DNA from: Elusimicrobiales bacterium
GTDB taxonomy: Bacteria; Elusimicrobiota; Elusimicrobia; Elusimicrobiales; UBA9959
NCBI GenBank assembly: GCA_028713125.1
Contig: JAQTOU010000009.1
Span: forward strand, 1-64,000
Direction of reading: 5' to 3'
DNA length: 64,000 nucleotides
Shown here: positions 7,173-44,032 of the stretch, piece after piece
How positions within the stretch are numbered: the first letter of the stretch is position 1
Layout of the letters: each line of letters starts with the position of its first letter
The notes under the pieces: model-generated
Told to the model about the DNA's origin: nothing
Databases searched by the model: none
The model's input: only the letters and a program-made list of their open reading frames with translations
Translations under genes and position numbers: made by a program

Positions 7173-7177
7173 AACTT

Positions 7178-7198
7178 CCAAAGTTTACAATACTTTGG
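7178..7198. promoter_or_regulatory. Inverted repeat CCAAAGT-N7-ACTTTGG at a divergent start region
   Basis: A perfect 7-base inverted repeat lies just upstream of the leftward glycosyltransferase start, in the 105-base divergent gap. A third ACTTTGG copy occurs at 7222-7228. The placement suits an operator for the leftward gene, but no regulator can be assigned. Confidence 0.4.
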
Positions 7199-7265
7199 CC
7201 TGGAAGTCGCAGCCCAATGTGACTTTGGTAACTGCGCGTTCTATAATAGATAAGTTATTTGCTAA

Positions 7266-7271
7266 TATTAT
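7266..7271 (+). promoter_or_regulatory. -10 box TATTAT six bases before the start codon
   Basis: TATTAT ends six bases before ATG 7278, so transcription would start at or near the A of the start codon. No Shine-Dalgarno sequence is present. A second hexamer, TATAAT at 7242-7247, could give a conventional leader instead. Confidence 0.45.
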
Positions 7272-7277
7272 ACCGAT

Positions 7278-8117: not shown

Positions 8118-8128
8118 GAGATATCGCT

Positions 8129-8731: not shown

Positions 8732-8738
8732 ATCCTAA

Positions 8739-11404: not shown

Positions 11405-12213
11405 ATTTTACGCAGGGCTATCCGCGCCGCCGCCTCTTCCGCCGGTATCTGAGCTTCTACGAAAACGACTTTGCGCCCGCCCAGCGCTCTCCGCGCCGCT
11501 TTTATAAAGCCGTTCCTGAAATGGAAATTAGCGATAAGCCCGCCGGCAAGCGCGACTTTTACAGCGCCTTTTCCCTTCCCCGCGGCGTCTTTCAGCAGGC
11601 CCGCAAGTTCCTCCTGGGCTTTGGCGGCGAGCTCTGAGGAAGGCCCGTGCCCGTCCAGGGCGAGGAGCAGCAGTTTTTTCGCGTAAGCGGCGGAGCGCCC
11701 GTGGCCCATTTTCCCGGCCTCGTGAAGTCGTCCGCGCATCTTCAGGTATTGCCGGCCCAGCCAGCGCCCGGAGCCCGGATCGCCGGAGGCGGGGTTGTGC
11801 CCGCCGGTTTTCTTAAAACACCCCGGCTTTCCTCTGAATACCACCGCGCCGGTCCCGGCTATCAGAAGCATACCCTCTTTGCCGCGGAAAGCGGCGTAAT
11901 GCGCGGCCTCGGCGTCGGAAATTACGTCTGCCAGGCCGAGCCTGCCTTTCAGCGCTTTGAAAAGGAAAGTCTTTTTCCAGGGGCGGCTGAAAGCGCCCCT
12001 GGTCGCTATCACCAGCGGAGCGGCGGCCCCCCCGGGCCAGCCCGAAACCAGGGGTATAAGTTTCTTTGGAAGGGAGCGCAGCGGGGCCGTGCGGAAGCGG
12101 GCCGCCTTAAGCGGGCGCAGGAGGGCGTCAAAAGCGGCCACTCGCGTCCAGGTTCCTCCCCTGTCCACGCCTATGCACGCTAGCCCTTTAGCTGATTTTG
12201 CCGGTTTTTTCAT
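11401..12213 (-). CDS. BadF/N-acetylglucosamine kinase-type ATPase
   Basis: A 270-residue ASKHA-fold protein. The first phosphate loop is GVDRGGTWTRVAAFD (about 15-29), the second is IAGTGAVVF, and GDPGSGRWLG matches the GDEGSG-type motif of N-acetylglucosamine kinase/BadF proteins with a Pro replacing the acidic residue. A late ALAGGLIANF segment is the adenosine-contact region. The likely reaction is ATP-dependent phosphorylation of an amino sugar, but BadF-type proteins also activate radical enzymes, and no such enzyme is nearby. It is the first gene of the leftward operon with an inositol monophosphatase and a TPR membrane protein, divergent from the EIIA gene. Confidence 0.8.
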   Translation of the reverse strand: MKKPAKSAKGLACIGVDRGGTWTRVAAFDALLRPLKAARFRTAPLRSLPKKLIPLVSGWPGGAAAPLVIATRGAFSRPWKKTFLFKALKGRLGLADVISDAEAAHYAAFRGKEGMLLIAGTGAVVFRGKPGCFKKTGGHNPASGDPGSGRWLGRQYLKMRGRLHEAGKMGHGRSAAYAKKLLLLALDGHGPSSELAAKAQEELAGLLKDAAGKGKGAVKVALAGGLIANFHFRNGFIKAARRALGGRKVVFVEAQIPAEEAAARIALRKI

Positions 12214-12227
12214 CGCGCTTTCGCTTC

Positions 12228-12257
12228 TTGACGACGGGAACTTTTAAATGATATCAT
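12228..12257 (+). promoter_or_regulatory. Sigma-70-type promoter TTGACG-N18-TATCAT for the EIIA gene
   Basis: TTGACG at 12228-12233 and TATCAT at 12252-12257 are separated by 18 bases. The -10 is embedded in the perfect palindrome ATGATATCAT at 12248-12257. Transcription would begin near 12264, just before GTG 12267, leaving almost no leader. Confidence 0.55.
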
Positions 12258-12266
12258 ATAAGCACA

Positions 12267-12749
12267 GTGACAGTCCTTATGATCAGACAGCCGGACGGCG
12301 TAAGCCTCGCAGCCCTAATTACCCAAGAAAACGTGGTTTTCCTGGAGGGAAAGCCCTCTAAAGAAGAAGCCGTGCGCCAGCTTACGGAGAGGATCCTGCC
12401 GCAGGTCAGCGAGATAATCCCCCGCAAGGCCCTTTTTGACAGGGTGGCCGAGGTCGAAAAGCTTAACCCGGTGCTTGAAAGCGGCTTTTACATCCCCCAC
12501 GCCAAGTTCCCGGACCTGGACACCTTCCATGCCGTGCTTGGGATACTGCCTGAGGGCTTTGTAGATCCTGGTACCGGGACCACCGTGAAAGCGGCGCTCC
12601 TGCTTCTTTCCCCTCATAAGCCCGCTTTTTTCCAGCGCCACCTTAATATACTTTCGCTCCTTTGCCAGACCTTCCAGCCTGAACTGGTAGAGAAACTCGC
12701 CGCCCTGAAAGACCCCGCCGCCGTCATCGCCCTCTTACAGGGAAAATAA
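12267..12749 (+). CDS. PTS EIIA type-2 (fructose/nitrogen type) domain protein
   Basis: A 160-residue stand-alone EIIA domain. The phosphorylatable His is H78 in GFYIPHAK, matching the G-x-AIPHA motif of EIIA-Fru/PtsN proteins; the rest of the fold (LTERILPQVSEI, LNILSLLCQ) also fits. No HPr, EI or membrane IIBC gene is in the window, so a regulatory role like PtsN is more likely than sugar import. GTG 12267 is annotated; ATG 12279 in the same frame is an alternative that removes four residues. Neither has a ribosome site. The gene is followed 78 bases later by an APC permease with a universal-stress-like cytoplasmic domain, which could be a regulatory target. Confidence 0.88.
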   Translation: MTVLMIRQPDGVSLAALITQENVVFLEGKPSKEEAVRQLTERILPQVSEIIPRKALFDRVAEVEKLNPVLESGFYIPHAKFPDLDTFHAVLGILPEGFVDPGTGTTVKAALLLLSPHKPAFFQRHLNILSLLCQTFQPELVEKLAALKDPAAVIALLQGK

Positions 12750-12827: not shown

Positions 12828-14831
12828 ATGGTAGTAAATCCCAAATTCAAGCAGGTCTTCGTACTGAGCACCGCGATGCTCAGCTTCATCTCTTTCTGGA
12901 AGGCCGCCTCCATCGTGCTTTGCGACTTCGGTTCCAGCGCCTATTACGCGGGCGGCATAGCCATGAACGCCTTCGGCCCGGCTTTCCCCTGGTTCATAAT
13001 GGGAGTTATGCTTTTCTCCGGGCTGATGCTGGGGGTCTATACCGAGTCCTGCATAATGTTCGTGCGCGGCGGCGTCTATGTAGTAGTCCGCGAAGCCATG
13101 GGCAAGGTCATGGCCAAACTGTCCGTTTCAGCCCTCGTTTTCGACTATGCCCTGACCGGCCCTATCAGCTCGGTCACCGCGGGCCTGTATCTCGGCAGTT
13201 TGCTGGAGAACCTGCTCCCCCTGCTGCATATCAACTGGCATGTGCCGGGCAGGACTTTCGCCGTGGTTTTCGCCCTCCTGGTCACCGCCTATTTCTGGCT
13301 CGAGAATATCCGGGGCATCGAGGAATCGGCCGACAATAACCTGAAGATCATAAGTTTCGTGGCCGTCGTGGCCGTGATCCTTATCGCCTGGTCGGGCTTT
13401 ACTTTATATTCCAGGGGTTTTACCCTCCCCCCGTTCAGGCCTGTTTTCAGCGAGGCCGCTCTCGGTTGGACCGTTAATTTCCCCTGGCTGAGGACGGCCG
13501 GCCTGATAGGCCTCGTGATGGCTTTCGGTCATTCCATCCTGGCGCTGAGCGGCCTTGAAACCCTGGCCCAGGTCTACAGGGAAATAGAAGACCCTAAGGT
13601 GCAGAACCTTAAGAAAGCCGTCGTGGTGATCTTCCTTTTCAGCGTTTTCTTCACCGGCCTCCTCACTTTTATCTCCGCGCTGATAATTCCGGGAGACCTG
13701 ATAGCCGGCAAATACGCCGACAATCTCCTGAGCGGCCTCGCGCTGGAGCTTAACGGCCCTTACTGGGGGCGCCTCGGCATGCAGATCGCCGTCGTGGTTT
13801 CAGGCGTCCTGATGCTGGTCGGCGCGGTCAATACCTCATTCGTCGGCGCTAACGGCGTCCTGAACCGCGTGGCGGAGGACGGCATACTCCACGACTGGTT
13901 CCGCCACCTGCACAAGAAGTACGGGACCACCTACAGGATAGTCAATATAATCGCGCTGATACAGGCGCTGATAATCCTGGTCTCGGGCGGCAATATCTTC
14001 CTGCTGGGCGAGGCCTACGCTTTCGGCGTCCTCGTGAGCATGACCTTCAATACCGCCTCGATGATCATCCTCCGCTTCAAGCACAGGGAGGAGGAGCGCG
14101 AATGGATGTTCCCGCTTAATTTCAAGTATAACAACGTCTACGTCCCGGTGGGGATGATGCTGGTCCTGCTGGTTCTTATTTCAGCCACGGGCATGAACCT
14201 TCTCACAAAAAAGATCGCCACTATCGGAGGCCTGCTTTTTACCGCGGTCTTCTACACCATCTTCCATGTCTCGGAAAAGATGAACGAGAAGAAGACGCGG
14301 CTGTACGCCCACGACGAGGATAACGACGAGAAAATGAATCTCCGCAGGGAGGCGGACATCCACACCGTGGTCCCGGAGCTTACCAAGGCCCACCGGGTCC
14401 TGGTGCCGGTGCGGAACCCGAACAATCTGGTGCACCTGGCTTCGGTCCTTGAAACAGTGGAGGACGCGGATACCGATATCATAGTCCTCAGCGCCAAGAT
14501 CTCCAAAGGCATCCAGTCGGGCGGCGAGACCATGTCGGACGAGGACAGGGAGGTCTTCAGCGCGGTGGTCCTGCTGGCGGAAAAGTACGGCAAGACCGTG
14601 AAGCCTATCTTCGTTTTTTCCAACGACCCGTTCTACTCCATGGCCCAGGTGGCGCAGGCCGCCGCCGTCGACGAGATAGTGATGGGCGTGTCGGGCTCCA
14701 GCGGCGCCGAGATCCAGCTGGAGCGGCTGGCCATGGCCTGGGGCATGCTTAAGAAGGCCGACGCCCCCGCCAAACCGGTGCTGGCCAGGGTGGTCTGGGA
14801 AGGCCGGCAGATGACGTACCAGCTTTCGTAA
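12828..14831 (+). CDS. APC-superfamily amino-acid permease with C-terminal USP-like domain
   Basis: A 667-residue inner-membrane transporter. About twelve hydrophobic segments fill residues 10-490, with the early unwound-helix region and FGHSILALSGLETLAQVYREIEDP in the middle typical of APC-type amino-acid/polyamine transporters. The cytoplasmic tail (about 520-667) holds a universal-stress-protein-like alpha/beta domain starting HRVLVPVRNP and ending with VDEIVMGVSGSSGAE. Such tails are regulatory and may bind nucleotide in related APC and cation transporters. Substrate cannot be named. It follows the lone EIIA gene and precedes def by 21 bases, so read-through into the def-fmt operon is possible. 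The start is ATG 12828, with no ribosome site but a -10 box immediately upstream. Confidence 0.9.
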   Translation: MVVNPKFKQVFVLSTAMLSFISFWKAASIVLCDFGSSAYYAGGIAMNAFGPAFPWFIMGVMLFSGLMLGVYTESCIMFVRGGVYVVVREAMGKVMAKLSVSALVFDYALTGPISSVTAGLYLGSLLENLLPLLHINWHVPGRTFAVVFALLVTAYFWLENIRGIEESADNNLKIISFVAVVAVILIAWSGFTLYSRGFTLPPFRPVFSEAALGWTVNFPWLRTAGLIGLVMAFGHSILALSGLETLAQVYREIEDPKVQNLKKAVVVIFLFSVFFTGLLTFISALIIPGDLIAGKYADNLLSGLALELNGPYWGRLGMQIAVVVSGVLMLVGAVNTSFVGANGVLNRVAEDGILHDWFRHLHKKYGTTYRIVNIIALIQALIILVSGGNIFLLGEAYAFGVLVSMTFNTASMIILRFKHREEEREWMFPLNFKYNNVYVPVGMMLVLLVLISATGMNLLTKKIATIGGLLFTAVFYTIFHVSEKMNEKKTRLYAHDEDNDEKMNLRREADIHTVVPELTKAHRVLVPVRNPNNLVHLASVLETVEDADTDIIVLSAKISKGIQSGGETMSDEDREVFSAVVLLAEKYGKTVKPIFVFSNDPFYSMAQVAQAAAVDEIVMGVSGSSGAEIQLERLAMAWGMLKKADAPAKPVLARVVWEGRQMTYQLS

Positions 14832-14852
14832 AACAATGAACGTGAGGTTTAT

Positions 14853-15398
14853 ATGGCAATAAAAAGGATCTGCAAATACGGCGAAAAGATACTCGAGAAA
14901 AAAACCAGGAAGATCAATTTCGACGAACTTAAAAAAAATCTGCCTGCCATCCTGGTGGACATGTTCGATACCATGGACGCGGTGGGAGGCATAGGGCTTG
15001 CCGCGAACCAGATAGGCCTCGATCTGCGACTGGCCGTGATAAAGATAAAGCGCGAAGACGAGGAGCCGCTCAGCATAGTCATCATCAACCCGGAGATCGT
15101 GGAGAAGTCCGGCACGCTTTACGAGGAGGAGGGCTGCCTTTCCTTCCCGGGCCTCTTCGCCAGGATCCGCCGCACCGCCAAGGTCAAGATGCGCGCCATC
15201 AACGAGAAGGGCATGCCGATAGAGATAACCGCTGAAGGTCTTTTCGCGAAGGCCGTGCAGCACGAGCTCGACCACCTGGACGGGGAGGTCTTCATCAACC
15301 GCCTCCCGCTGATGTCCCGCCTCAAGCTCAAGCCCGCCCTCATAAAGCTTAAGTCCCAGTGGAAAAAAATAGACGAGAGCAAGATGAAGCCGATGTGA
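14853..15398 (+). CDS. def: Peptide deformylase
   Basis: A 181-residue enzyme that removes the formyl group from the N-terminal Met of new proteins. All three signature motifs are present: GIGLAANQ (about 47-53), EGCLS with the metal ligand C95, and HELDH with metal ligands H137 and H141 and catalytic E138. A positively charged C-terminal tail follows. It lies 4 bases before fmt, the usual partner that adds the formyl group to initiator tRNA, so the pair is co-expressed. A weak GTGAGG ribosome site precedes ATG 14853. Length and motifs are normal for the family. Confidence 0.97.
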   Translation: MAIKRICKYGEKILEKKTRKINFDELKKNLPAILVDMFDTMDAVGGIGLAANQIGLDLRLAVIKIKREDEEPLSIVIINPEIVEKSGTLYEEEGCLSFPGLFARIRRTAKVKMRAINEKGMPIEITAEGLFAKAVQHELDHLDGEVFINRLPLMSRLKLKPALIKLKSQWKKIDESKMKPM

Positions 15399-15402
15399 CA
15401 GA

Positions 15403-16350
15403 ATGGCCAAACTGAAAATAGTTTTTCTCGGCACGCCCGAGATCGCCTGCGGTTTCCTCAGGCGCCTCGCGGCCTCTGGCCAGGAGCTCGCCGGCGTCGT
15501 CTCGCAGCCGGACCGGCCCGTCGGGCGCGGCCTTAAGCTCTCCCGCGCGCCGGTCAGCGCGCTGGCGGAGGAGCTGGGTTACAGAACTTTCAGGCCCGCT
15601 ACGAAGCAGGAGCTTCACGCCGTCATCTCGGAGCTGAAACCGGACCTCTGCGTAGTGGTGGCTTACGGCCGCCTTATCCCCGCGGAGACCCTGGCTTTGG
15701 CGCGCTACGGGTTCCTTAACGTGCACTTTTCGCTGCTCCCTAAATACCGCGGCGCGGCCCCGGTGCAGTGGGCCCTTATTAAAGGCGAGAAAACCACCGG
15801 CGTCACGCTGTTCTGGCTGGACGAAGGCATGGACACCGGCCCGGTCTTTCTTCGCCGTGAAGAGCGGGTCCTGGAGTCCGACGACGCGGTCTCGCTTTTC
15901 GGGCGGCTTTCGGCCTGCGGGACAGGCCTTTTGGACGAGGGGCTGAGAAAGATCCTGGCGGGTGAGATCATACGCGAGCCGCAGACAGGCGAGGCTTCCG
16001 CGGCCCCCAAGCTTTCTTCGGATCTCGCCCTGCTCGATTTTTCCCTTCCCGCGGCGGAATTGCTCGGAAAAGTGCGGGGGCTGGCCTGCGGTCCCAAACC
16101 GCGCTTCAGCCTCGGGCAGTCCGGGCGCAAGCTCGCCGTGCAGGTGCTGTCCGCGGCGCTGCCGGAGGCTCCTTCCGGTGACGGCCCGGCCGGCGCGGTG
16201 CTTTCCGTTGAGCCCGGCGGCGGCTTTATTGTAAAATGTGGCGTCGGGAGCCTGCTTGTAAGAACGGTCAAGCCCGAGGGGAAAAAAGAAATGCGGGGCT
16301 CGGATTTTCTGAACGGGCTGCGCCTCAAGCCGGGAGACATGCTCCGCTGA
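15403..16350 (+). CDS. fmt: Methionyl-tRNA formyltransferase
   Basis: A 315-residue enzyme that transfers a formyl group from 10-formyl-tetrahydrofolate to Met-tRNA(fMet). The N-terminal Rossmann part begins KIVFLGTPEIA, and the catalytic signature SLLPKYRGAAPVQWAL is seen near residues 109-124, with DTGPV after it. The C-terminal oligonucleotide-binding-like domain covers about 205-310. Directly preceded by def (4-base gap) and followed by a PASTA-domain protein 29 bases on. In many Firmicutes this locus continues with rsmB, a phosphatase, the PASTA kinase prkC, rsgA and rpe; here only the PASTA part and rpe remain. Confidence 0.97.
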   Translation: MAKLKIVFLGTPEIACGFLRRLAASGQELAGVVSQPDRPVGRGLKLSRAPVSALAEELGYRTFRPATKQELHAVISELKPDLCVVVAYGRLIPAETLALARYGFLNVHFSLLPKYRGAAPVQWALIKGEKTTGVTLFWLDEGMDTGPVFLRREERVLESDDAVSLFGRLSACGTGLLDEGLRKILAGEIIREPQTGEASAAPKLSSDLALLDFSLPAAELLGKVRGLACGPKPRFSLGQSGRKLAVQVLSAALPEAPSGDGPAGAVLSVEPGGGFIVKCGVGSLLVRTVKPEGKKEMRGSDFLNGLRLKPGDMLR

Positions 16351-16379
16351 ACGCGGGGGGTTTATAAGGAGATACTTCT

Positions 16380-17384
16380 GTGGGACTTAAAGAATTTTAC
16401 CAGCGCCATTTTTCCTCTTCGGACGAGAAGATAATCAGCCCCGGTTTCGTCGCGCGCGTGGGCGGGGTCGGCTTCGCGCTCTTCTTCCTCACTTACTTCC
16501 TTTTCTCCTGGACCATGGAGACCGTCATCCACGACCGGAAAGAGGTTATCGTCCCCGATATCTCCGGGAAGTCCTCCGTAAACGCACTACAGGCGCTCTC
16601 GGTGATAAACCTGGCCATGAAGATAGGCGGCTACGAGTTCAACGAGGCCGTCCCCATAGGGACCGTCCTGCGCCAGGTGCCCGGCGCCGGCGCGACCGTG
16701 CGCGAGGGCAAGATAGTGCGCGTGGTCTTCAGCCAGGGCGGCGAGTCGGTTTTTACTCCCAACCTGATAGGCCTGCCGCTCAGGAACGCCGAGCTGCTGC
16801 TGCGGCAGCGCCAGCTGGTCCTTGGCGAGGTCTCCGAGGCTTATTCCCTTAAAGCGGAGAAGGGAACCGTCCTCTCCCAGGACCCCAAGCCCGAGCTCAG
16901 CGTTTCAAAAAATACCATGGTGCAGGTTACGGTCTCGAACGGCCTCCCCCCGGCCGGCATTATCATGATGCCCGACTTCCGGCAGAAGAAAAGCGACGAG
17001 GCCCAGCAGTGGGCGTCGGAGAACGGCCTGTCCCTCAACCTGATCGAGGACTCGAGTTCCCTTTTCCCCGGCGGGACGATCATCGACCAGGACCCCCAAT
17101 CGGACGCCGTCGTCGCCGCTGACGCGAAGATCACCCTTACCATAAGCTCGCGCAAGGCCGCCGCCGGCGGCGAGCGCGAATTCCGCGTCCATTACGAACT
17201 TCCCCAGGGCGGGGCCCAGCGCCATATCCGCGTAGTCGCTATCGGCAGGGCCGGGGACAGGGAGATCTTCAACGGCCTGCGCGATCCGGGCTCCAAGATC
17301 GACTTTTCCGTCCCCTACGCCGGCGCGGAAAAAGTGCGCATTTTCATGAACGGCATACTCGTCGAGGAGCGCCCCATAAAATGA
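16380..17384 (+). CDS. Membrane-anchored PASTA-repeat protein without a kinase domain
   Basis: A 334-residue protein starting at GTG 16380, set by AAGGAG about 9 bases upstream. A short cytoplasmic tail (1-27) precedes one transmembrane segment (about 28-48). The extracytoplasmic part has three PASTA domains (about 55-122, 125-192, 193-262), each beginning with a VPDISG, TPNLIG or MPDFRQ type segment, and then an unrelated beta-rich domain (about 265-334). PASTA domains bind peptidoglycan fragments and usually form the sensor of a PrkC-type Ser/Thr kinase or a penicillin-binding protein. There is no kinase domain here, although the neighbours (fmt before, rpe after with an ATGA overlap) match the prkC locus. 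Confidence 0.88.
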   Translation: MGLKEFYQRHFSSSDEKIISPGFVARVGGVGFALFFLTYFLFSWTMETVIHDRKEVIVPDISGKSSVNALQALSVINLAMKIGGYEFNEAVPIGTVLRQVPGAGATVREGKIVRVVFSQGGESVFTPNLIGLPLRNAELLLRQRQLVLGEVSEAYSLKAEKGTVLSQDPKPELSVSKNTMVQVTVSNGLPPAGIIMMPDFRQKKSDEAQQWASENGLSLNLIEDSSSLFPGGTIIDQDPQSDAVVAADAKITLTISSRKAAAGGEREFRVHYELPQGGAQRHIRVVAIGRAGDREIFNGLRDPGSKIDFSVPYAGAEKVRIFMNGILVEERPIK

Positions 17385-18058
17385 AGCCCCCTTTCTTCCC
17401 CCTCCCTACCGGCCGCGCCGCGCTGGTTCCCTCGGTGCTCGCGGCGGATTTTACCTGCCTCAGGGACAGCCTGGCCCCGGTAAAAAAGCTGGCGGACTGG
17501 GTACAGGTGGACGTGATGGACGGGCATTTCGTCCCGAACATAAGCTTCGGCCCCGGCATCGTCTCCGCCGTGGCGGCCGCCTCTTCCCTGCCCATAGACG
17601 CCCACCTGATGGTGGAGGACCCGGGCCGGTTCATCGGCGCTTTCGCCTCCGCCGGGTCGGGACTTATCACGGTGCACGCCGAGGCCCTGGCCCCCGGGCC
17701 CTGCCTTAAAAAAATTAAGGCCCTGGGCCTGAAAGCCGGGCTGGCGTTGCGGCCCAAAACCCCGCTGAAGCGGGTGCTCCCGTACCTGCCGCTGCTGGAC
17801 CTTATCCTTATAATGACGGTGGAGCCGGGTTTCGGCGGGCAGGCCTTCATGCCTGAAATGATGCCCAAGGTCGCGGCGGCCAGGAAACTGATCTCCGGGT
17901 CGGGGCGCGGGATCTGGCTGCAGGTCGACGGCGGCATCAATGCCGGCACGGCGGAGACCGCCGCCAGCGCCGGCGCCGATTCTCTGGTCATAGGCAGCGC
18001 GCTTTTCTCGGCCGCGGATCCTGCCGCGCTGCTGCGCGGGCTTAAAAAGAAAATTTGA
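17381..18058 (+). CDS. rpe: Ribulose-phosphate 3-epimerase
   Basis: A 225-residue TIM-barrel enzyme of the pentose phosphate pathway that interconverts ribulose 5-phosphate and xylulose 5-phosphate. Family signatures are visible: PSVLAADF near the N-terminus, DVMDGHFVPN (catalytic Asp and metal-binding His), HLMVEDP, MTVEPGFGGQ and VDGGI (second catalytic Asp). The start ATG overlaps the stop of the PASTA gene by ATGA, so the two are translationally coupled. A 22-base gap separates it from the receiver-domain gene. Length is normal. Confidence 0.96.
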   Translation: MKPPFFPLPTGRAALVPSVLAADFTCLRDSLAPVKKLADWVQVDVMDGHFVPNISFGPGIVSAVAAASSLPIDAHLMVEDPGRFIGAFASAGSGLITVHAEALAPGPCLKKIKALGLKAGLALRPKTPLKRVLPYLPLLDLILIMTVEPGFGGQAFMPEMMPKVAAARKLISGSGRGIWLQVDGGINAGTAETAASAGADSLVIGSALFSAADPAALLRGLKKKI

Positions 18059-18080
18059 CGGGGTACGGGGGAAACGGGAA

Positions 18081-18446
18081 ATGGCTAAAAAGATACTTAT
18101 AGTTGAAGACGAGGACCTTATCTGCAAGGTCCTTTCCATCCGCCTCGAGGGCCTCGGCTACAAGGTGGTTATCGCCCTCGACGGGGAAGAGGGGCTGGAC
18201 GCCGTAAAGAAGGAGAACCCTGACCTGGTCCTCCTGGACATCGGCCTGCCCAAGCTGGACGGCAATACTCTCTGCGAGCTGATAAAGAGCGGGAATGAGA
18301 CCAAGCACATAAAGGTCATAATGCTCACCGGCAAGAGGCTGGTGGGCGATATGGAAAACTCCTTCTCGGCCGGCGCGGATTTTTACATTAATAAGCCCTA
18401 CGAATGGCCGCGGCTGCTCGAGCATATTAAGAAACTTATAGGCTGA
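18081..18446 (+). CDS. Stand-alone response-regulator receiver domain
   Basis: A 121-residue CheY-like single-domain protein. The acidic pocket is E9-D10-E11-D12, the phosphoacceptor is D53 in LVLLDIGLP, followed by the conserved Thr in MLTGKR and Lys in NKPYEW. There is no output domain, so it acts by binding a partner, as relay or adaptor proteins do. The gene sits 22 bases after rpe, preceded by GGGGGAAACGGGAA as a weak ribosome site. No histidine kinase is found in the window; its cognate kinase and target are unknown. Confidence 0.92.
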   Translation: MAKKILIVEDEDLICKVLSIRLEGLGYKVVIALDGEEGLDAVKKENPDLVLLDIGLPKLDGNTLCELIKSGNETKHIKVIMLTGKRLVGDMENSFSAGADFYINKPYEWPRLLEHIKKLIG

Positions 18447-18458
18447 AGCGCATAGCCG

Positions 18459-18487
18459 TTCCAAAAACCGTTCAAATATAATATAAT
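18459..18487 (+). promoter_or_regulatory. Probable promoter of the rpsP operon
   Basis: Two overlapping TATAAT hexamers lie at 18477-18482 and 18482-18487. A weak -35 (TTCCAA, 18459-18464) is 17 bases before the second. The transcript would carry a leader of about 110 bases ahead of rpsP. Confidence 0.55.
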
Positions 18488-18494
18488 AGATAGG

Positions 18495-18605
18495 CACGGA
18501 GGTCTGCTCACAGCGGGCTCGTGTCCGATTTGTTCGGCCGCCTTTGATGGCATAGCCTTGATGGCGGCACTAGCATAGCTTCGTCGGCAACTTAAGGAGG
18601 ATACT
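18495..18605 (+). other. Structured 5' leader of the rpsP operon
   Basis: The leader contains a CCGA/TCGG hairpin (18525-18537) and a larger stem GCCGCC (18537-18542) with GGCGGC (18563-18568) enclosing an inner GGC-ATA-GCC hairpin. A strong AAGGAGG ribosome site follows just before ATG 18606. It may be a ribosomal-protein or processing leader; no known class was recognised. Confidence 0.4.
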
Positions 18606-18875
18606 ATGGCAGTTGTTCTTAGGCTTCAGAGAATTGGAAAACGCACTCAGCCGCATTACCGGATAGTCGCCATTGAAAAGGCGAGCGGGACGAAAGGCCA
18701 GCCGCTCGAGATCATAGGGCACTATAACCCCAAGGCTGACAAAGACAAAGAAAAGGTCACCTTTAACGCAGAGAAGCTCGACCGCTGGATAAAGACGGGC
18801 GCCAAGCCCTCCGAAACCCTCGGTTCCCTGATCACCCGCGCCCGCAAGGCAGAAAAGGCCGTTGAGAAGAAATAA
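18606..18875 (+). CDS. rpsP: 30S ribosomal protein S16
   Basis: An 89-residue ribosomal protein with the S16 signature start VVLRLQRIGK and PHYRIVAIEKAS, followed by EIIGHYNPK. It assembles early into the 30S 5' domain. The start ATG 18606 has the best ribosome site of the window (AAGGAGG, 5 bases upstream). It is the first gene of the rpsP-khpA-trmD-rplS operon, 12 bases before khpA, and its transcript has a structured leader of about 110 bases. The basic C-terminal tail is short, as is common outside Gammaproteobacteria. Confidence 0.97.
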   Translation: MAVVLRLQRIGKRTQPHYRIVAIEKASGTKGQPLEIIGHYNPKADKDKEKVTFNAEKLDRWIKTGAKPSETLGSLITRARKAEKAVEKK

Positions 18876-18887
18876 GCGGAGGTCAAA

Positions 18888-19115
18888 ATGAAAGAAGCTT
18901 TAATGTACATCATCGGCTCCCTGGTGGAAAACCCCCAGGCGGTCAAGGTCGGCGTCGCCGAAGACGGCGATATCGTCCGGTTCAAGCTTGAGCTGGCCTC
19001 CTCCGACCGCGGCAAAGTAATAGGCAAGGAAGGGCGCGTGGTGAAAGCCATCCGCACCGTCCTGCAGACGGCCGCCGCCAGGCAGAACAAGAAAGTTTAC
19101 CTGGACATAGACTGA
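18888..19115 (+). CDS. khpA: KH-domain RNA-binding protein KhpA
   Basis: A 75-residue single KH domain, with the RNA-binding loop GKVIGKEGRVVKAIR (GxxG as GKEG) near residues 42-56. KhpA, usually with KhpB/Jag, binds RNA and affects cell envelope growth and translation in Firmicutes; a partner KhpB is not in the window. The gene lies between rpsP and trmD as in many bacteria. Normally rimM follows, but here trmD begins 8 bases after the khpA stop. A GCGGAGG ribosome site precedes ATG 18888. Confidence 0.95.
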   Translation: MKEALMYIIGSLVENPQAVKVGVAEDGDIVRFKLELASSDRGKVIGKEGRVVKAIRTVLQTAAARQNKKVYLDID

Positions 19116-19122
19116 TCTTTAT

Positions 19123-19830
19123 ATGCGCGTAGACGCGGTCACGCTTTTCCCGGCAATGATCGACTCGCCGCTTTCGGAAAGCATCGTGGGCCGCGCGCGC
19201 GAGGAAGGTTTCCTGGAGCTGGGTTTCTTGAACCCGCGGGATTTTACCGAGGACCGCCACCGCACCGTGGACGACAAGCCTTACGGCGGCGGGACCGGGA
19301 TGGTGATGATGGCGGAGCCCGTTTACCGGGCGCTCAAGAAAGTCAGGAAGAAGAATTCTTTCGTTATTCTCCTGACGCCGAAGGGCCGCCGCTTCGACCA
19401 GCCGCTGGCGCTGGAGCTGGCGAAGAAGAAGCACCTGATCTTTATCTGCGGACATTACGAGGGCATAGACGAGCGCGTCACCCCTCTCGCCGACATGGAA
19501 CTTTCCATAGGCGATTATGTCCTGACCGGCGGCGAGCCGGCGGCGGTAGCGGTGATAGACGCGGTGACGCGGCTTATCCCCGGCGTGCTCAAGAAAGAGG
19601 ACGCCACCGTGAACGAGACTTTTACCGGCGGCCTGCTCGAAGCCCCGCATTACACCCGGCCGGGCGTCTGGCGCGGAGAGAAAGTTCCCGAGGCGCTTTT
19701 GAGCGGGAACCACAAGCTGATAGCCGAGTGGCGCAGCACGCAGGCGCGGGAACTTACCGGGAAAGCCAGGCCGGACCTGCCGGCCGGCGGGCAGGCGAAA
19801 AAACCGGCGCGCGGCAAAAAGAAAATTTAG
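19123..19830 (+). CDS. trmD: tRNA (guanine-N1-)-methyltransferase
   Basis: A 235-residue SPOUT methyltransferase that makes m1G37 in tRNAs next to the anticodon and prevents frameshifting. Knot motifs are clear: [13 protein letters not shown] (about 47-59), [12 protein letters not shown] and the SAM-binding [12 protein letters not shown], and the catalytic Asp region around PHYTRP follows. The C-terminal domain ends in a short basic tail (KKPARGKKK). It directly follows khpA and precedes rplS by 41 bases. The expected rimM gene between khpA and trmD is absent. Confidence 0.97.
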
Positions 19831-19871
19831 GAATTAAATCAGTCGGCTTTGCAAATAACTTAGGAGGCAGT

Positions 19872-38039: not shown

Positions 38040-39863
38040 TTATTTCTCCGGCTGGGGGATAGAGCCGGAATAGAAAGGCTTGCACTCCATCCCCGGGACC
38101 AGCTTTTCTATCGTGCCCAGCACGGAAAGAACCGGGCCGGCCAGTGATTCCAGCATGCTGAGTTTGCCCATCTTCGGATGGGCAAGCGTTCCGTTTATTT
38201 TCTGGCTGTAGGCGGCGCAGCCGCGCTTGTCCAGGATGGCGGCGGTCATACCGTCGAAGCGGAGCCCGGCGAAATCCAGCCGGCCTTCCATGGCCAGCCG
38301 GTAATGCAGGGTGGCCATGGCCACGTCTTCGGTCACGGCGCTCCCGTTCTCCAGTTTCCAGACCGAGGCCAGCCGGCTTATCTTCCCGTCCTTCCCGCGC
38401 GAGAAGCCGAGGTCCACGAAGTTGTAGCTTTTCGTCACGGCCGGCCCCAGCGGGCCTGCCAGCAGGAAAGCTCCGGCGTCAAGCAGGTTGAAATTCTGGC
38501 TGCGTTCCAGTTTTGAAATGACGGCGTCCAGGTCCATATTATGGAGCACCAGGTCTTTTCCCGTCAGGGCGACCCTGCCTTTCATCGAGCCGAACAGTTC
38601 CCCGGCGCCGCTGCCGCGCGCGGTGATGTCCGCCGACCAGTCGGCCAGGCCTTCCATAGGCTCGGGCCCGTTCCTGCTTTTCGCGAAAGACCCGAGGAGG
38701 ACCTCCAGCCTGGTTCCCGTCAGGGTATAGTTCGCCGCGTAAACCGGGACCGCGGAAGAGAGGTCCGCCTTCAGGTCGCCGCTCCCGCGCCCGCCGAGGA
38801 AGTCGGCCTGAAGCGCGCCGGCGGAGAATATCCCCTTTTCGGCCGAGGCTTTCATGTCGACGCCGGTAAAGTCCAGCCCGCCGGCTTTTACTTCACCGAA
38901 TTTCAGGCTTCCTCGAAGGGAGAGGTTCCTGTACGGCTTCCCGGCGGGGTCGAACGAGTAAGAGATCTCCCCTTCGGCCAGCCCTGCGCCGGACGCCTGC
39001 GTTTTCACTCCGGCTTTTATGGAGGCGAACTTAAGGTCCCCTTTGTAAAATAGTATCCTGCCGGTTTTAACCCCGGGACGGAAAGTATAAGAAAGGTTTT
39101 TCGCGGCCGCCTCGATGCCGTCCGCCTCGAAATCGCCGCCGAGGGCGAAGGTTCGGCACTTTATCTCCCCCTTGAGGAACAGCGTCCTGGACTCGGAGCC
39201 GGCGGGGTCCAGATAGGAAAAATCGGAGATGGCCGCCTTGAGGCCCGCCGCTTTCACCCCGCTCCCTACACTTAACGACTCGCACTTCAGGTCGCCGTTA
39301 AAGAATAATTTCCTGCCCTGAGCTTCTCCCGGCGGGGTTCCGTAATAGAGATCTTTTGCCGTCAGCTCTATCCCGGAGGCCTTGACGTCGCGCCCTGGCT
39401 CTAGCCCGGCGTAAGCGACGGAGCCGCGGCTGATCCGCAGTTCCTTGACGGTAAAAGGCCTGCCGGCCGGCTGAACGCCGGGCTTTCCCGTCCCGGGCCG
39501 CGGCGCATGCACCAGCTGCAGCGACAAACCGTCGAGCTCGGCCCTGGCTATCCGTACTTCGCGCCTCAGGAGGGGCCTGAGTTCCAGCCAGATCCTGGCC
39601 TTCTCAATTTTTATTATTTTAATGAAACGGGGCTCGGCCGCTTTGACGGTGATATCCCCAAGGGTAAGCTGCGCCCGCGGGAAGAGGCCCAAGCGGATCT
39701 TCCCTCCGACCGTCACCTCCATATGCAAAGCGGCGGAAACTTCCGCCTCTACCCGGCGCTTAAGCGCGGCTTCCCCGGGGACAAGAGACAGGCGGGCCCA
39801 GGCCAAAGCAAGCAGGACGAGGACGGCCGCGCCCGATAATATTATCTTCCTATGGGGTGTCAT
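38040..39863 (-). CDS. AsmA-family inner-membrane protein
   Basis: A 607-residue protein with one N-terminal membrane anchor (about 8-26) and a long beta-rich periplasmic part. The AsmA pattern is seen at the N-terminus (a basic-hydrophobic anchor, then LGLFPRAQLTLGDI) and at the C-terminus (a domain from about 400 to 590). The middle contains internal repeats of about 50 residues with the motif LFLKGEIKC or LFYKGDLKF (about 165-320), likely beta rungs. AsmA-like proteins are thought to help lipid transfer or outer-membrane biogenesis. It lies leftward of, and 42 bases downstream of, the anti-sigma gene and may belong to the same transcript. Confidence 0.85.
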   Translation of the reverse strand: MTPHRKIILSGAAVLVLLALAWARLSLVPGEAALKRRVEAEVSAALHMEVTVGGKIRLGLFPRAQLTLGDITVKAAEPRFIKIIKIEKARIWLELRPLLRREVRIARAELDGLSLQLVHAPRPGTGKPGVQPAGRPFTVKELRISRGSVAYAGLEPGRDVKASGIELTAKDLYYGTPPGEAQGRKLFFNGDLKCESLSVGSGVKAAGLKAAISDFSYLDPAGSESRTLFLKGEIKCRTFALGGDFEADGIEAAAKNLSYTFRPGVKTGRILFYKGDLKFASIKAGVKTQASGAGLAEGEISYSFDPAGKPYRNLSLRGSLKFGEVKAGGLDFTGVDMKASAEKGIFSAGALQADFLGGRGSGDLKADLSSAVPVYAANYTLTGTRLEVLLGSFAKSRNGPEPMEGLADWSADITARGSGAGELFGSMKGRVALTGKDLVLHNMDLDAVISKLERSQNFNLLDAGAFLLAGPLGPAVTKSYNFVDLGFSRGKDGKISRLASVWKLENGSAVTEDVAMATLHYRLAMEGRLDFAGLRFDGMTAAILDKRGCAAYSQKINGTLAHPKMGKLSMLESLAGPVLSVLGTIEKLVPGMECKPFYSGSIPQPEK

Positions 39864-39905: not shown

Positions 39906-40871
39906 TCAGCGCGGCAGTGTTTCGGCTTTGCGCGTCCGGGTGTCCAGGCTGTAGCGGCTGCCTCTCTCGTCGGAGATCTCAAGGAACCCGCCTTTCAGGG
40001 CAAGCGAAGAGATATGAACCTGCTGAACGTCGGCTTCCAGGTTCGGGTCTTCGGGGACTTCGTAAACGCGCGTTTCCCAAAGGAGTTCGCTCGTTCGCGC
40101 GTCGAAAGCTTTAATGGAACCGCCGTTGCGGAGCCGGCCGGTTTCCCTCCAGTGCGAGGCCGAAAAACGGACCCCGTCCGCGACGATATCGGGGATGGTC
40201 TTGGGGGCGGCGCGTTTTGCCATATTCCCTTCGGCGAAGAAAGCGGCGAGGGCCGGGTCGCCGGTAAGGGGGACAGAGGAGGCCGAAGCCTTTACCGCTT
40301 CTTTTGAACGGAGGCTGCCTGCGAATTTAGCCTGGCCATAAGCTCCGCGGGCCGCCGCCGGAGCCGCATAGCGCTGCCCGCTCCCGCCGCCCCCGCCCGA
40401 GGCTAAGGACCCGGCTGAAAAGGAAGAGGCCTCTTTTGCGTCTGCCCCATCGTCAGCGGAAGGCGACTGGAAAGCTTCTTCTTTATAGGCGGCCGGAAGA
40501 CTCTCAATTGAGGCCGGAGAGGCGGCCTGGAAAACTTCTGGCGAAGCCTGCTGTTTCCTTTCCCCGGTTTTAGGCAGGGCGAGAATTATAAGCAGACCCG
40601 CCGCTGCGGCCGCGAAGGCGGCGGCCGGCTTGAGCCAGGAAGAAAAGAAAGGCGCCGAGGGCTTTTCGGCGAATACAGCCTCTTTTAAGGAAAGAGGGGC
40701 CGGCTCCATCGCGTGTTTCCTGAAAACGGCCGAAACCCGCTTCAGCTCCGCAAGTTCGCGGCGGCAGCCGGGGCAGGCAGCCAGGTGGCTTTCGAGCGAA
40801 AGTTTTTCTTCCCGGGGCAGTTCGCCGTCCAGGAAGGAGGATAAGTTTTCCCTGCAGGTATTATGTTCCAT
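39906..40871 (-). CDS. Transmembrane anti-sigma factor with ZAS zinc finger
   Basis: A 321-residue anti-sigma protein. The cytoplasmic N-terminus carries the zinc anti-sigma motif H29-x3-C33-x2-C36 with a further Cys at 6; a transmembrane segment lies near 83-100. The periplasmic part has an Ala/Ser-rich region, a Gly run (about 159-164), the motif RGAYGQAKFA (175-184), and a beta-rich C-terminal domain (about 215-321). The zinc motif binds and inhibits the ECF sigma encoded just upstream, which overlaps it by 11 bases. The RG-YGQAK motif recurs in the divergently encoded VIT-vWA protein, suggesting a common partner or protease. Confidence 0.9.
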   Translation of the reverse strand: MEHNTCRENLSSFLDGELPREEKLSLESHLAACPGCRRELAELKRVSAVFRKHAMEPAPLSLKEAVFAEKPSAPFFSSWLKPAAAFAAAAAGLLIILALPKTGERKQQASPEVFQAASPASIESLPAAYKEEAFQSPSADDGADAKEASSFSAGSLASGGGGGSGQRYAAPAAARGAYGQAKFAGSLRSKEAVKASASSVPLTGDPALAAFFAEGNMAKRAAPKTIPDIVADGVRFSASHWRETGRLRNGGSIKAFDARTSELLWETRVYEVPEDPNLEADVQQVHISSLALKGGFLEISDERGSRYSLDTRTRKAETLPR

Positions 40872-41403
40872 TGTCTTTCAGCAGCGAGCCCATTTTCTGC
40901 CTCAGGGCTTCGCGCGACCTCGAGATCCGGGATTTAACTGTTCCCAGCGGTATCTCCGTTATCCCCGCTATCTCCTCGTAGGAGCGGCCGTCTATTTCCC
41001 GCAGGACCAGTATCGCCCGGTCTTCGGGGTCCAGGGCGGCGAGGGCTTTTTCCAGCGCTTCTTTCTCGTCCCTTTCTTCTATCGCGGCGTCCGCCGGCGG
41101 CTCCGGGGAGGCTATCTGCAAAGCGTTCTGGTCATTCTCGTCTTCTTTCTCCCGGTCAAGCGAGAAGGTTTTCCAGAATGACCTTCTCTTTTCGCTCCTG
41201 ACCCGGTTCTTCCAGACATTCATGGTTATCCGGTACAGCCAGGTTCCCGCTATCGAACCGTCCCTCAGGCCGCCCAGCCCGCGTATAGCCCTTATGAACG
41301 CGTCCTGGGAAATATCCTGGGCGTCGGCGGCATTGCCGCTCAGGCGCAGGGCCAGGTTATAGACCATGGCCGCATGCTTGTCAAAAAGTTCTTTCGCGTC
41401 CAA
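40861..41403 (-). CDS. ECF (RpoE-like) RNA polymerase sigma factor
   Basis: A 180-residue sigma factor with region 2 (about 3-70; DAQDISQDAFIRAIRG binds the -10 and core) and region 4 (about 118-172; SYEEIAGITEIPLGTVKSRI, the -35 reader), joined by an acidic linker. TTG 41403 is chosen as start because GGAGGGG lies just upstream and the ECF promoter at 41424-41451 would start RNA near 41417; the ATG at 41472 lies upstream of that promoter. The gene overlaps the anti-sigma gene by 11 bases. It likely activates its own operon and the VIT-vWA gene, whose promoters share -35 GGAACTT and -10 GTCTAA. Confidence 0.93.
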   Translation of the reverse strand: MDAKELFDKHAAMVYNLALRLSGNAADAQDISQDAFIRAIRGLGGLRDGSIAGTWLYRITMNVWKNRVRSEKRRSFWKTFSLDREKEDENDQNALQIASPEPPADAAIEERDEKEALEKALAALDPEDRAILVLREIDGRSYEEIAGITEIPLGTVKSRISRSREALRQKMGSLLKDNGT

Positions 41404-41423
41404 AACCCCTCCGGGCCCGCTTA

Positions 41424-41451
41424 TTAGACACCGTTCCGCGCAATAAGTTCC
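41424..41451 (-). promoter_or_regulatory. ECF-type promoter of the sigma/anti-sigma operon
   Basis: Leftward GGAACTT (41451-41445)-N15-GTCTAA (41429-41424). The -35 matches the GGAAC core of ECF promoters. The flanks TTAT before -35 and CGGT before -10 are the same as in the divergent promoter at 41482-41509, indicating that one sigma factor reads both. Confidence 0.8.
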
Positions 41452-41481
41452 ATAAAAGTTTACCAATTGCAAAAGAGTTAT

Positions 41482-41509
41482 GGAACTTTTTCCGGCTTCC
41501 GGTGTCTAA
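41482..41509 (+). promoter_or_regulatory. ECF-type promoter of the VIT-vWA gene
   Basis: Rightward GGAACTT (41482-41488)-N15-GTCTAA (41504-41509), a mirror of the leftward promoter with 30 bases between the two -35 boxes. Transcription would start near 41516, ahead of AAAGGAGG and ATG 41534. Confidence 0.8.
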
Positions 41510-41533
41510 CCGTGGACAGTAAAGGAGGCGGTT

Positions 41534-44032
41534 ATGAAACTCATCTCACAGTTCCGTAAAGTTCTGGCTCCGGTAATAGTTCTCGCCCTGTCCTGCGCGG
41601 CTTCGGCCCGGCCGCAGGATCCGGGCGAAGGCTGCCTGCAGGTGGTGTCAGCGGGGACCGATACCTTAAGGATACTTCCTCTTAAGCATACGGAGGTGAA
41701 AGCCGCCATTTCGGGCTTCGTCGCCGAAGTCAGCGTCACGCAGGTGTTCGGCAACCCTTCCGAGGACCCCATCGAAGCGGTTTACGTCTTCCCCCTGCCC
41801 GAGAACGCGGCGGTGAACGAGATGACGCTCGCCGTAGGCGACAGGCTCATAAAGGGACAGATAAAGAAGAGGGAGGAAGCGCGGCAGGTCTACGAGAAAG
41901 CCAAAGCCGAGGGCCGGACCGCGGCGCTCCTGGACCAGGAGCGGCCGAACATCTTCACCCAGTCAGTGGCCAATATCCCCCCCGGCCGCGAAATAAGGGT
42001 CACGCTTAAATATATCCAGGACCTGGCCTACGACCACGGCGAATATAAATTCGTCTTCCCGATGACCGTCGGGCCGCGCTATATCCCCGGGAAAACCACG
42101 GGCAAGGCAGGTACCGGCTGGTCGGACGATACCGACCAGGTCAGGGACGCCTCCCGGATCTCTCCTCCCGTCGTAAAACCCGGGCAGAGGTCGGGCCGCG
42201 ACATCTCGGTGCAGGTCAGCCTGGACGCGGGCGTGGCGGTCAGGAACCTGCGCAGCTCTTCGCATGCGGTGACGATAAACAGCATCGCCCCGGCTAAGGC
42301 GGAGATAACTATATCGCCGGAGGACAGCATCCCTAATAAGGACTTCCTCCTGACCTATGAGCCGGCGGTGAAGATGGTGAGCGCCGCCGTCCTCGCTCAC
42401 AAGGAGGGCAAGGAAGGCTACCTGACGCTGATGGTGCAGCCCAACGCGGATTTCCCCCTTACCCAGGTCACCCCAAAAGAACTGGTCATCGCTATAGACG
42501 TCTCCGGCTCGATGAGCGGTTTCCCGCTGCAGACCGCCAAGGAAACGGCCCTGCGCTGCCTCGACGGGATGAACCCCGGAGACACGTTCCAGATAATGAG
42601 CTTCGCTTCAGGCAATGAGCTCCACTTCGAGAGACCGCTTGAAAACACTCCGCTGAACGTGGCGCGCGGCCGCGCCGTGATAAACGGCCTCAGCGAAGGC
42701 GGCGGCACAGAGATGCTGGCCGCCCTGCAAAAAGTGCTCGAGTTCCGGAAGGACCCGGAGCGCCTTCGCATAGTGCTCTTTATGACGGACGGCTTCATCG
42801 GCAATGATCCTGAGATACTTGCTTTCACTAAAGAGCATCTGAATAATTCCCGCATTTTCCCGCTCGGCGTGGGCTCATCCACCAACCGGTACCTGCTGGA
42901 GGAAATGGCGGTGCTGGGCAAAGGCACAGTGCAGTACGTCCGGTACAATGAGAAGGCGGAAAAACTCGAGAAGGTCATAGAGCGGTTCTACGAGAGGATC
43001 TCCCGGCCCGTCCTTACGGACCTGTCGGTGGACTGGAACGGTCTCGACGTTGCCGACCTTTCTCCCTCCTTCATCCCGGACCTCTTCGCCGGCCAGCCGC
43101 TGCTCCTTCACGCCAGGTATAATAAAGGCGGCAGCGCGCCCGTGCTGATCAGGGGCAAACTTATGGGCAAGCCCTGGAAGATGTCGGTAAGCGTCAACCT
43201 CCCGGAAAAGGAAATGGCCAATGGCGCTATGGGGACGCTGTGGGCCAGGTCGAGCATAACCGACCTTGAGCGCCTGAACCTCCGGGGCGAGAACGCGGAT
43301 GCGAAGGCGCGGATCATAGAACTGGCCCTCGCGCATAAGCTTGTAACCGGCTACACTTCCTTCGTGGCCGTGGACGAGAGCCCCGTCGACCCGAAAGGGA
43401 AGAAGCCGCTGTTGATCCCGGTAGAATCGGAACTGCCGGAGGGAACTCAGTATGAGGGTTTCTTCGGGCGCGCCGGCGGCGGCGGGTCGCTCTCCGGCGC
43501 CTCTTTCGGGGCGGCAGCGGTGCGCGGCTCTTTCGGCCAGGCGAAATACGCGAGAATGGCCAGCCCCGCTTCCAGCGCTATGCTGTCCATGGAAAGCGCG
43601 GATGGAGCCTCGTCGCTCCATGAAGCGAAGGCCGCGGGTTCGGGCAATAGAGTCAAGGCTCTCCCGGAGAGGGAAGACATCGTGGCCGGGCTTGCGCTGA
43701 AACTTCTGGAGAACCCGACGCCCAGGCTGCTGCGGCAGCTGGTTTCCCGCCAGGAAGCTTCGGGCTCTTTCAGCGGGTCCGAAGGCAGGAAAACCTCTCC
43801 CGCGGACCAGGCCCTTGCGCTCCTCGCCCTGGCCAAGGCCAAGACCGTGCTCGAGGGAGACGCTGACGCCGCTATACAGCTGGCCTGGAGTTCCCTGCGC
43901 CGCGCTTACCCCGCGGGAACGAACGGCCGTGAAGCGGTGGTCAAAGCGCTGAAAGGCAGCCCCCACTGGAGTTCCGTCTCGGTACAGCGCGAGCTGGCGG
44001 CCCTCGGCGCGACTCTTGAAGCGTTGAAGTAG
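41534..44032 (+). CDS. Secreted VIT-domain / von Willebrand A-domain protein
   Basis: An 832-residue protein with a signal peptide (about 1-26, ending ASARPQ). A VIT domain (about 35-165) contains the family features ISGFVAEVSVTQVFGN and EAVYVFPLPENAAV. The vWA domain (about 315-490) has the metal-ion site D322-x-S324-x-S326 in DVSGSMSG, plus the later Thr in GGGTEM and Asp in MTDGF. A Gly/Ala/Ser-rich segment (about 650-700) carries RGSFGQAKYA at 664-673, close to a motif in the anti-sigma factor. A helical C-terminal domain follows. VIT-vWA proteins are thought to mediate adhesion or protein contact in the envelope. The ECF promoter and AAGGAGG site upstream make it a likely sigma target. 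Confidence 0.92.
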   Translation: MKLISQFRKVLAPVIVLALSCAASARPQDPGEGCLQVVSAGTDTLRILPLKHTEVKAAISGFVAEVSVTQVFGNPSEDPIEAVYVFPLPENAAVNEMTLAVGDRLIKGQIKKREEARQVYEKAKAEGRTAALLDQERPNIFTQSVANIPPGREIRVTLKYIQDLAYDHGEYKFVFPMTVGPRYIPGKTTGKAGTGWSDDTDQVRDASRISPPVVKPGQRSGRDISVQVSLDAGVAVRNLRSSSHAVTINSIAPAKAEITISPEDSIPNKDFLLTYEPAVKMVSAAVLAHKEGKEGYLTLMVQPNADFPLTQVTPKELVIAIDVSGSMSGFPLQTAKETALRCLDGMNPGDTFQIMSFASGNELHFERPLENTPLNVARGRAVINGLSEGGGTEMLAALQKVLEFRKDPERLRIVLFMTDGFIGNDPEILAFTKEHLNNSRIFPLGVGSSTNRYLLEEMAVLGKGTVQYVRYNEKAEKLEKVIERFYERISRPVLTDLSVDWNGLDVADLSPSFIPDLFAGQPLLLHARYNKGGSAPVLIRGKLMGKPWKMSVSVNLPEKEMANGAMGTLWARSSITDLERLNLRGENADAKARIIELALAHKLVTGYTSFVAVDESPVDPKGKKPLLIPVESELPEGTQYEGFFGRAGGGGSLSGASFGAAAVRGSFGQAKYARMASPASSAMLSMESADGASSLHEAKAAGSGNRVKALPEREDIVAGLALKLLENPTPRLLRQLVSRQEASGSFSGSEGRKTSPADQALALLALAKAKTVLEGDADAAIQLAWSSLRRAYPAGTNGREAVVKALKGSPHWSSVSVQRELAALGATLEALK

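Follow-up and report, generated by a model that had tools for sequence, protein, structure and literature searches.

A divergent promoter pair points to a self-activating ECF sigma factor switch with one dedicated VIT-vWA target in an Elusimicrobiales bacterium

Which sigma factor reads the two promoters that lie between a sigma/anti-sigma operon and a divergent VIT-vWA gene, and how far does its regulon extend beyond them? The locus is in the 64,000-nucleotide stretch of an Elusimicrobiales genome analysed here (hereafter the window; contig JAQTOU010000009.1, positions 1 to 64,000). A sequence-only reading had described mirror-image ECF promoters between the divergent genes, and had proposed that the sigma factor drives its own operon and, as its main target, the VIT-vWA gene. 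We found the sequence GGAACTT-N15-GTCTAA exactly as described, once per strand and in mirror orientation (TTTATGGAACTTATTGCGCGGAACGGTGTCTAA as read on the minus strand, GTTATGGAACTTTTTCCGGCTTCCGGTGTCTAA on the plus strand). Both copies have a 15-base spacer, TTAT 5' of the −35 box and CGGT 5' of the −10 box, and exactly 30 bases (41452-41481) separate the two −35 boxes. A scan of the window for the motif returned 2 matches against 0.02 expected, and two copies were recovered in 0 of 100 shuffles. Transcription is predicted to start at about 41417 on the sigma side and about 41516 on the VIT side, which gives leaders of 14-18 nt, just long enough for ribosome sites. The sigma-side leader has GGAGG at about 41406-41412 (minus strand) followed by TTG at 41403; on the VIT side, AGGAGG is followed by ATG at 41534. 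Predicted starts, leaders, ribosome sites and start codons all fit the view that each promoter leads to one of the divergent genes (Table 1).

The sigma factor contains regions 2 and 4 only (Pfam Sigma70_r2 at residues 6-74 and Sigma70_r4_2 at residues 115-167 of 180), the architecture of ECF (group IV) sigma factors, and scores above the cut-off of TIGR02937. Two other ECF characters are present: at the sequence level, the AAC of the −35 box is found as GGAAC before the sigma gene in 16 of 16 loci, and a zf-HC2 anti-sigma gene, with which cognate pairing is predicted, overlaps the sigma gene in 15 of 15 aligned loci (by 11 bp in the window). Relatives start the sigma gene with GTG, TTG or similar. 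A 203-aa open reading frame from 41472 is an unlikely start for the gene, since it would begin upstream of the promoter. The region 4 helix aligns closely with those of AlgU/SigE-type sigma factors (PLGTVKSRISRSREAL versus PVGTVRSRIFRAREAI); against the RpoE equivalog TIGR02939, the protein scores 114.7 bits, below the cut-off of 236.15. In RpoE structure work the −35 box used is GGAACTT (PMC8103513).

The anti-sigma factor keeps the ZAS zinc motif HX3CX2C, as HLAACPGC, throughout the alignment (zf-HC2 E-value 6.9e-11), and seems to be anchored in the membrane, with a long part outside. It does not match the RseA profile and scores under the RsrA and ChrR cut-offs. Its C-terminal domain differs by species, being DUF6970 in G008 and G018 and other domains, as yet unassigned, elsewhere. 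Across L109-L121 and L190 this outer domain has been exchanged (DUF6970, a PQQ-repeat-like scrap, others), and the zinc finger, the membrane segment and the short peptide described below stay despite the exchange. The genes downstream of the anti-sigma gene are not conserved in relatives; hence, the operon probably consists of the sigma and anti-sigma genes only. We rejected an AsmA-like gene (38040-39863) as a third member on the same ground.

Table 1. Coordinates of the features of the sigma/VIT locus in the window.
Feature	Position	Strand	Basis
Anti-sigma factor, 321 aa; zf-HC2 zinc finger, hydrophobic stretch at about residues 82-99, long linker, C-terminal domain	39906..40871	-	
Peptide RGAYGQAKFA, anti-sigma extracytoplasmic linker, residues 175-184	40320..40349	-	alignment, pattern search
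ECF sigma factor, 180 aa, TTG start, GGAGG ahead	40861..41403	-	Pfam Sigma70_r2 and r4_2; start alignment, 15 loci
Putative ECF-type promoter of the sigma/anti-sigma operon, GGAACTT-N15-GTCTAA, extended −10 CGGTGTCTAA	41424..41451	-	sequence, scans, 16-locus footprint
Third element TTGGTAAACTT (TTGNTAAACTT), probable housekeeping extended −10 reading into the sigma gene	41456..41466	-	16/16 loci
Putative ECF-type promoter of the VIT-vWA gene, GGAACTTTTT-N8-CGGTGTCTAAC	41482..41509	+	sequence, scans, 16/16 loci in footprint
Ribosome-binding site AGGAGG of the VIT-vWA gene, just within the predicted leader	41523..41528	+	sequence; ATG 41534 follows
Exported VIT-vWA protein, 832 aa; VIT, vWA, disordered linker 617-714, helical C-terminal domain 715-832	41534..44032	+	signal-peptide-like N-terminus, domains
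Peptide RGSFGQAKYA, VIT-vWA disordered linker, residues 664-673	43523..43552	+	alignment, pattern search, model

We searched the whole source genome (3.48 Mb in 39 contigs, 100% complete) for further members of the regulon, as the sequence-only reading had suggested. Far from occurring everywhere, exact GGAACTT-N14..16-GTCTAA is present only as the two window copies. With up to two mismatches allowed, there were 53 sites versus 93 for the reversed control, so the relaxed matches are background, and we discarded a wider regulon on this basis. The single one-mismatch match (C11:5986) lies within or at the edge of the reading frames of an electron-transfer-flavoprotein-like pair (identified by eye), and an extra match to the core (G000:C15:670492) is within a long reading frame; both were set aside.

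We then compared 32 genomes of the genus. Fourteen encode both the sigma factor (at least 69% identical to the one in the window) and a close VIT-vWA relative (62-81% identity over the best segment); the next-nearest sigma factor in the genus genomes has at most 50% identity to that of the window. All 22 exact copies of the motif are at the sigma/VIT locus, and they occur in 13 of the 14 genomes with the system versus 0 of the 18 without it (Fisher p=4e-8, a test that takes these related genomes to be independent). The remaining genome with the system, G020, has the same layout, with −10 boxes GTCTAT on the VIT side and GTCATT on the sigma side. The reversed motif had no match in the same 32 genomes. 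For the core GGAACNT-N11-CGGTGTC, the locus accounts for 27 of 32 matches in the genus genomes; of the five off-locus matches we inspected four, and all four are within long reading frames. Since the motif is restricted to the locus, co-occurs with the sigma factor and is conserved, we conclude that both the sigma/anti-sigma operon and the VIT-vWA gene are very probably under the control of this sigma factor. The proposed role of the VIT-vWA gene as main target can be sharpened: it appears to be the only detectable target besides the sigma factor itself, making this locus the only detectable regulon.

Recognition by the adjoining sigma factor is deduced from these distributions. Could the boxes be real ECF promoters that another sigma factor of the cell reads, with the adjoining sigma gene merely one of its targets? 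In the source genome, 10 proteins exceed the Sigma70_r4_2 cut-off. Several are ECF-like and could include a sigma factor of overlapping specificity, and RpoE-type ECF promoters do overlap in sequence. However, the 18 genus genomes that lack this sigma factor have no copy of the motif, though several carry other ECF-like sigma factors (lower-scoring matches), and the motif follows this sigma factor across families, including one genome, G337, in which the genes are co-directional. We consider reading by another sigma factor very unlikely. The source genome contains a second ECF-like promoter family, GAAACTTTT-N11-GCATCTAA, at G000:C11:346448-346475(-), C15:15470-15497(-) and C15:35595-35622(+) (L014, L025, L027). 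These sites precede a gene for a small CxxC-containing protein, a gene resembling rhodanese and a unit that immediately precedes a thioredoxin gene (names by eye), and the family looks like a redox regulon.

To see which bases are kept at the sigma/VIT locus, we aligned 16 loci on the boxes, from the 14 genus genomes and two others of the same family (G155 and G152). Because the footprint finder accepted only sites with GGAAC, GTC and C/TGGT, these letters are in part invariant by construction; an unconstrained best-match search returned the same sigma-side sites in 14 loci, also in G152, and the exact-motif search had yielded the same VIT-side sites. The boxes and CGGT are kept, and most of the spacer drifts. 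Information per column on the VIT side is 2.0 bits in the −35 box and 1.9 bits in the −10 box; over the first 11 bases of the spacer it is 0.9 bits, chiefly from a T-run behind the −35 box, and CGGT is seen in 15 of 16 loci. The corresponding values for the sigma side are 1.9, 1.6 and 0.8 bits. The sigma-side −35 box reads GGAAC(T/C/A)T, and CGGTGTC is present in 16 of 16 loci; the final three bases drift, giving a −10 box of GTCTTT or GTCATT in some species. This drift, together with the higher conservation of the VIT side, indicates that the VIT promoter is the nearer to consensus in most species. Of the identical flanks noted from the sequence, CGGT was borne out in relatives and TTAT was not. 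Like TTAT, the 30-base gap, exact in the window, is confined to the source genome and its near kin. Hence, we did not retain TTAT or the gap as functional features.

The footprint also bears on a different reading of the mirror-image boxes, as one bipartite operator for a dimeric regulator rather than two promoters. An inverted arrangement of identical cores between divergent genes would suit such an operator, but the spacing between halves ranges from 30 bp to almost 5 kb, the genes in G337 are co-directional, and each half keeps N15 and a short distance to its start codon (11-27 nt from the −10 end on the sigma side). These properties make a bipartite operator extremely improbable, and favour two promoters. 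The sigma and VIT genes are separated by about 1 kb, with one gene between them, in G010 and by about 5 kb in G026; in both genomes each unit keeps its own promoter copy, as the proposed control of both units by the sigma factor would predict. A decayed VIT promoter copy remains beside the sigma gene in G026. At L109, upstream of 7497, this decayed copy reads GGAACTTTTTCGGCGCTCCGGTGCCAAAC (reverse strand), and the VIT gene is now about 5 kb off.

Beyond the genus, G337, from another family of the phylum, has the sigma, anti-sigma and VIT genes co-directional, with exact promoters before the sigma and VIT genes. In ten genomes of families f14 and f15, a single row of genes encodes a sigma factor, an anti-sigma factor and a VIT protein (about 30% identity), with GGAAC-N17..18-GTC boxes before the VIT and sigma genes in most of these genomes. 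Being weaker, and with a score of 10 of 13 also reached by about 4% of random segments, these boxes count as support rather than proof. The box is absent from VIT homologues without a nearby sigma gene (G182, the second copy in G209, G180 and Pseudanabaena). G230 and G189 keep weak boxes and have related sigma factors elsewhere in the genome. On a tree of sigma factors, linkage to VIT is clustered and does not form a single clade, suggesting repeated loss or gain of the linkage, or misplacement of some rows. The tree forces at least five changes, a count that is too high, since three VIT-linked rows (L202, L203 and L210) were left unlabelled. Further exact GGAACTT-N15-GTCTAA sites occur in the phylum (L129-L140; G166, G168, G177, G178, G181, G191, G332, G333 and others), and those in G166:C24, G191, G332 and G337, at least, precede related sigma genes.

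A third conserved element, TTGNTAAACTT, lies between the two promoters in the window. It occurs exactly once per locus in all 16 loci (220 kb in total), always upstream of the sigma gene and directed towards it, never antisense. Its distance to the sigma −35 box is 14-15 or 42-45 bases, and 152 bases in G030. In that genome, an insertion of about 140 bp (L119, approximately 5200-5340) parts the TTGATAAACTT element from the sigma promoter; the insertion is rich in short inverted repeats and looks like a small mobile repeat. Extended −10 elements for sigma-70 have a TGN extension and the bases −12T, −11A and −7T. The third element resembles these (TGN plus TAAACT), and is probably a basal housekeeping promoter of the sigma operon. 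Its conservation is very strict, beyond that of many −10 elements, as might be expected if some separate regulator of this operon bound there instead. We regard a regulator site as possible, though clearly the less likely of the two, given the TGN extension, the three matching bases and the constant direction towards the sigma gene.

The predicted target contains a VIT domain followed by a vWA domain (PF08487, 9.7e-40; PF13768, 4.7e-13). The vWA metal site is intact, with the sequence DVSGS and with D322, S324, S326, T392 and D419 invariant in the comparison. The AlphaFold model has a mean pLDDT of 64.6, so only its VIT-vWA core is trustworthy. The best solved-structure match is ITIH1, an inter-alpha-trypsin inhibitor heavy chain (6fpy; E-value 1e-32, TM-score 0.72 on the target, 18% identity). 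The order of domains, the metal site and the fold are thus ITIH-like; unlike ITIH1, the window protein is bacterial and exported, and carries a disordered linker and a helical C-terminal domain of its own. We suggest that the product is an adhesin- or matrix-like exported protein. Its VIT and vWA architecture is shared with the marine proteobacterial sortase target family TIGR03788, but its score of 526.5 bits is below the cut-off of 551.65, no sortase (PF04203) was found in the source genome by a search that was positive in control genomes, and no sorting signal was seen at its C-terminus. Hence, we rejected it as a sortase target. The VIT-vWA proteins of G018 and G030 (L117:4399-6705 and L119:2752-5196) lack the helical C-terminal domain; their C-termini consist of a hydrophobic segment and then arginines, resembling a membrane anchor.

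The anti-sigma factor and the VIT-vWA protein have a short peptide in common (Table 1). A clear or degenerate copy is present in 15 of 15 anti-sigma factors and 14 of 15 VIT proteins, the VIT copy in G020 being doubtful. A degenerate DNA pattern for G(A/S..)(Y/F)xQAK(F/Y) has 39 matches in the 32 genomes, and the reversed control has 0. We could place 37 of the 39: all fall in the anti-sigma gene, the VIT gene or the gene for one conserved membrane protein, of 501 aa in the source genome (L187:9294-10799). This third carrier belongs to a cluster of low-complexity membrane proteins, and is also found in genomes without the switch. The cluster (L187, G000:C15:366000-385900; for example 6982-12320 and 14084-19862) encodes membrane proteins with long low-complexity linkers, for which we found no Pfam or NCBIfam family; the protein with GAYGQAKFA is kept in almost the whole genus. 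We rejected homology between the whole anti-sigma tail and the cluster protein: most of the BLAST similarity is low-complexity sequence, and what stands up is confined to the motif with the flank next to it (SPKYAxP...KKGAFGQAKFA). Peptides that share a genome agree better than shuffled pairs do (6.9 versus 6.1 of 10 positions, p=0.0002, with genome relatedness only partly controlled).

The simplest reading of the shared peptide is a common binding partner or protease, as its presence in both the anti-sigma factor and the VIT-vWA protein suggests. It could also be a by-product of similar low-complexity linkers: all three carriers have linkers rich in Ala, Ser and Gly, and the motif region of the VIT-vWA protein is modelled as disordered (pLDDT of about 20). 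However, the reversed pattern, with the same bases, finds nothing, the placed matches converge on three protein families, and the linker around the peptide drifts even as same-genome pairs stay alike. A by-product is thus conceivable but unlikely. Since inhibitor, target and cluster membrane protein carry the same peptide, the switch might even read the state of an L187-type cluster, with the VIT-vWA product and the cluster protein competing with the anti-sigma factor for one partner (receptor or protease). We offer this only as speculation, and rate it slightly below the linker by-product; if true, a product-sensing loop would be closed through a common short peptide on the outer face.

Taken together, the locus is most likely a self-activating switch, based on an ECF sigma factor of the envelope-stress type, with one dedicated target, and we propose the following circuit. 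The sigma factor and its membrane-bound zinc-finger anti-sigma factor would be made at a low level, probably from a basal promoter at the third element, and the anti-sigma factor would retain the sigma factor at the membrane. An envelope signal acting on the outer part of the anti-sigma factor would free the sigma factor from the membrane, and its complex with RNA polymerase would read both divergent promoters. The sigma-side promoter would amplify the sigma/anti-sigma operon, providing positive feedback together with its own brake; the VIT-side promoter would yield the exported VIT-vWA protein with its intact metal site. More tentatively, the same envelope partner may bind or cut the peptide of both the anti-sigma factor and the VIT-vWA protein, coupling inhibitor to target.

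The full RpoE consensus is GGAACTT-N15/16-GTCTAA, and the system resembles E. coli rpoE (RpoE/AlgU type) in its −35 box, its sigma factor of regions 2 and 4 only and its co-operonic membrane anti-sigma factor. It differs in that the sigma factor falls outside the NCBIfam RpoE equivalog, the anti-sigma factor is of the zf-HC2 type and the regulon appears to be one locus rather than many genes. The anti-sigma factor shares its zf-HC2 domain and HX3CX2C motif with the ZAS proteins (RsrA, ChrR and zf-HC2 proteins); it scores too low for RsrA or ChrR, and differs in its apparent membrane anchor and in a long outer part whose C-terminal domain is swapped between species. The rpoE operon is autoregulated and has additional promoters before it (PMC8103513), an arrangement that the window locus would share.

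Our literature search found no account of an ECF/VIT-vWA pair or of ECF sigma factors in Elusimicrobiota, a phylum with very few cultured members. The autoregulated ECF switch is a known class; what would be new here is a regulon of one locus whose effector is a VIT-vWA protein, and the peptide common to inhibitor and effector. ECF sigma factors have mostly been studied as controllers of broad stress regulons. The switch proposed here would be a minimal closed circuit of one sigma factor, one inhibitor and one effector, kept in the genus and found in diverged form in several families of the phylum. Its defined promoter pair, GGAACTTTT-N8-CGGTGTCTAA, is testable in E. coli. The circuit would offer a first way into the regulation of bacterial VIT-vWA proteins, and its short peptide links the inhibitor, the effector and an uncharacterised envelope cluster.
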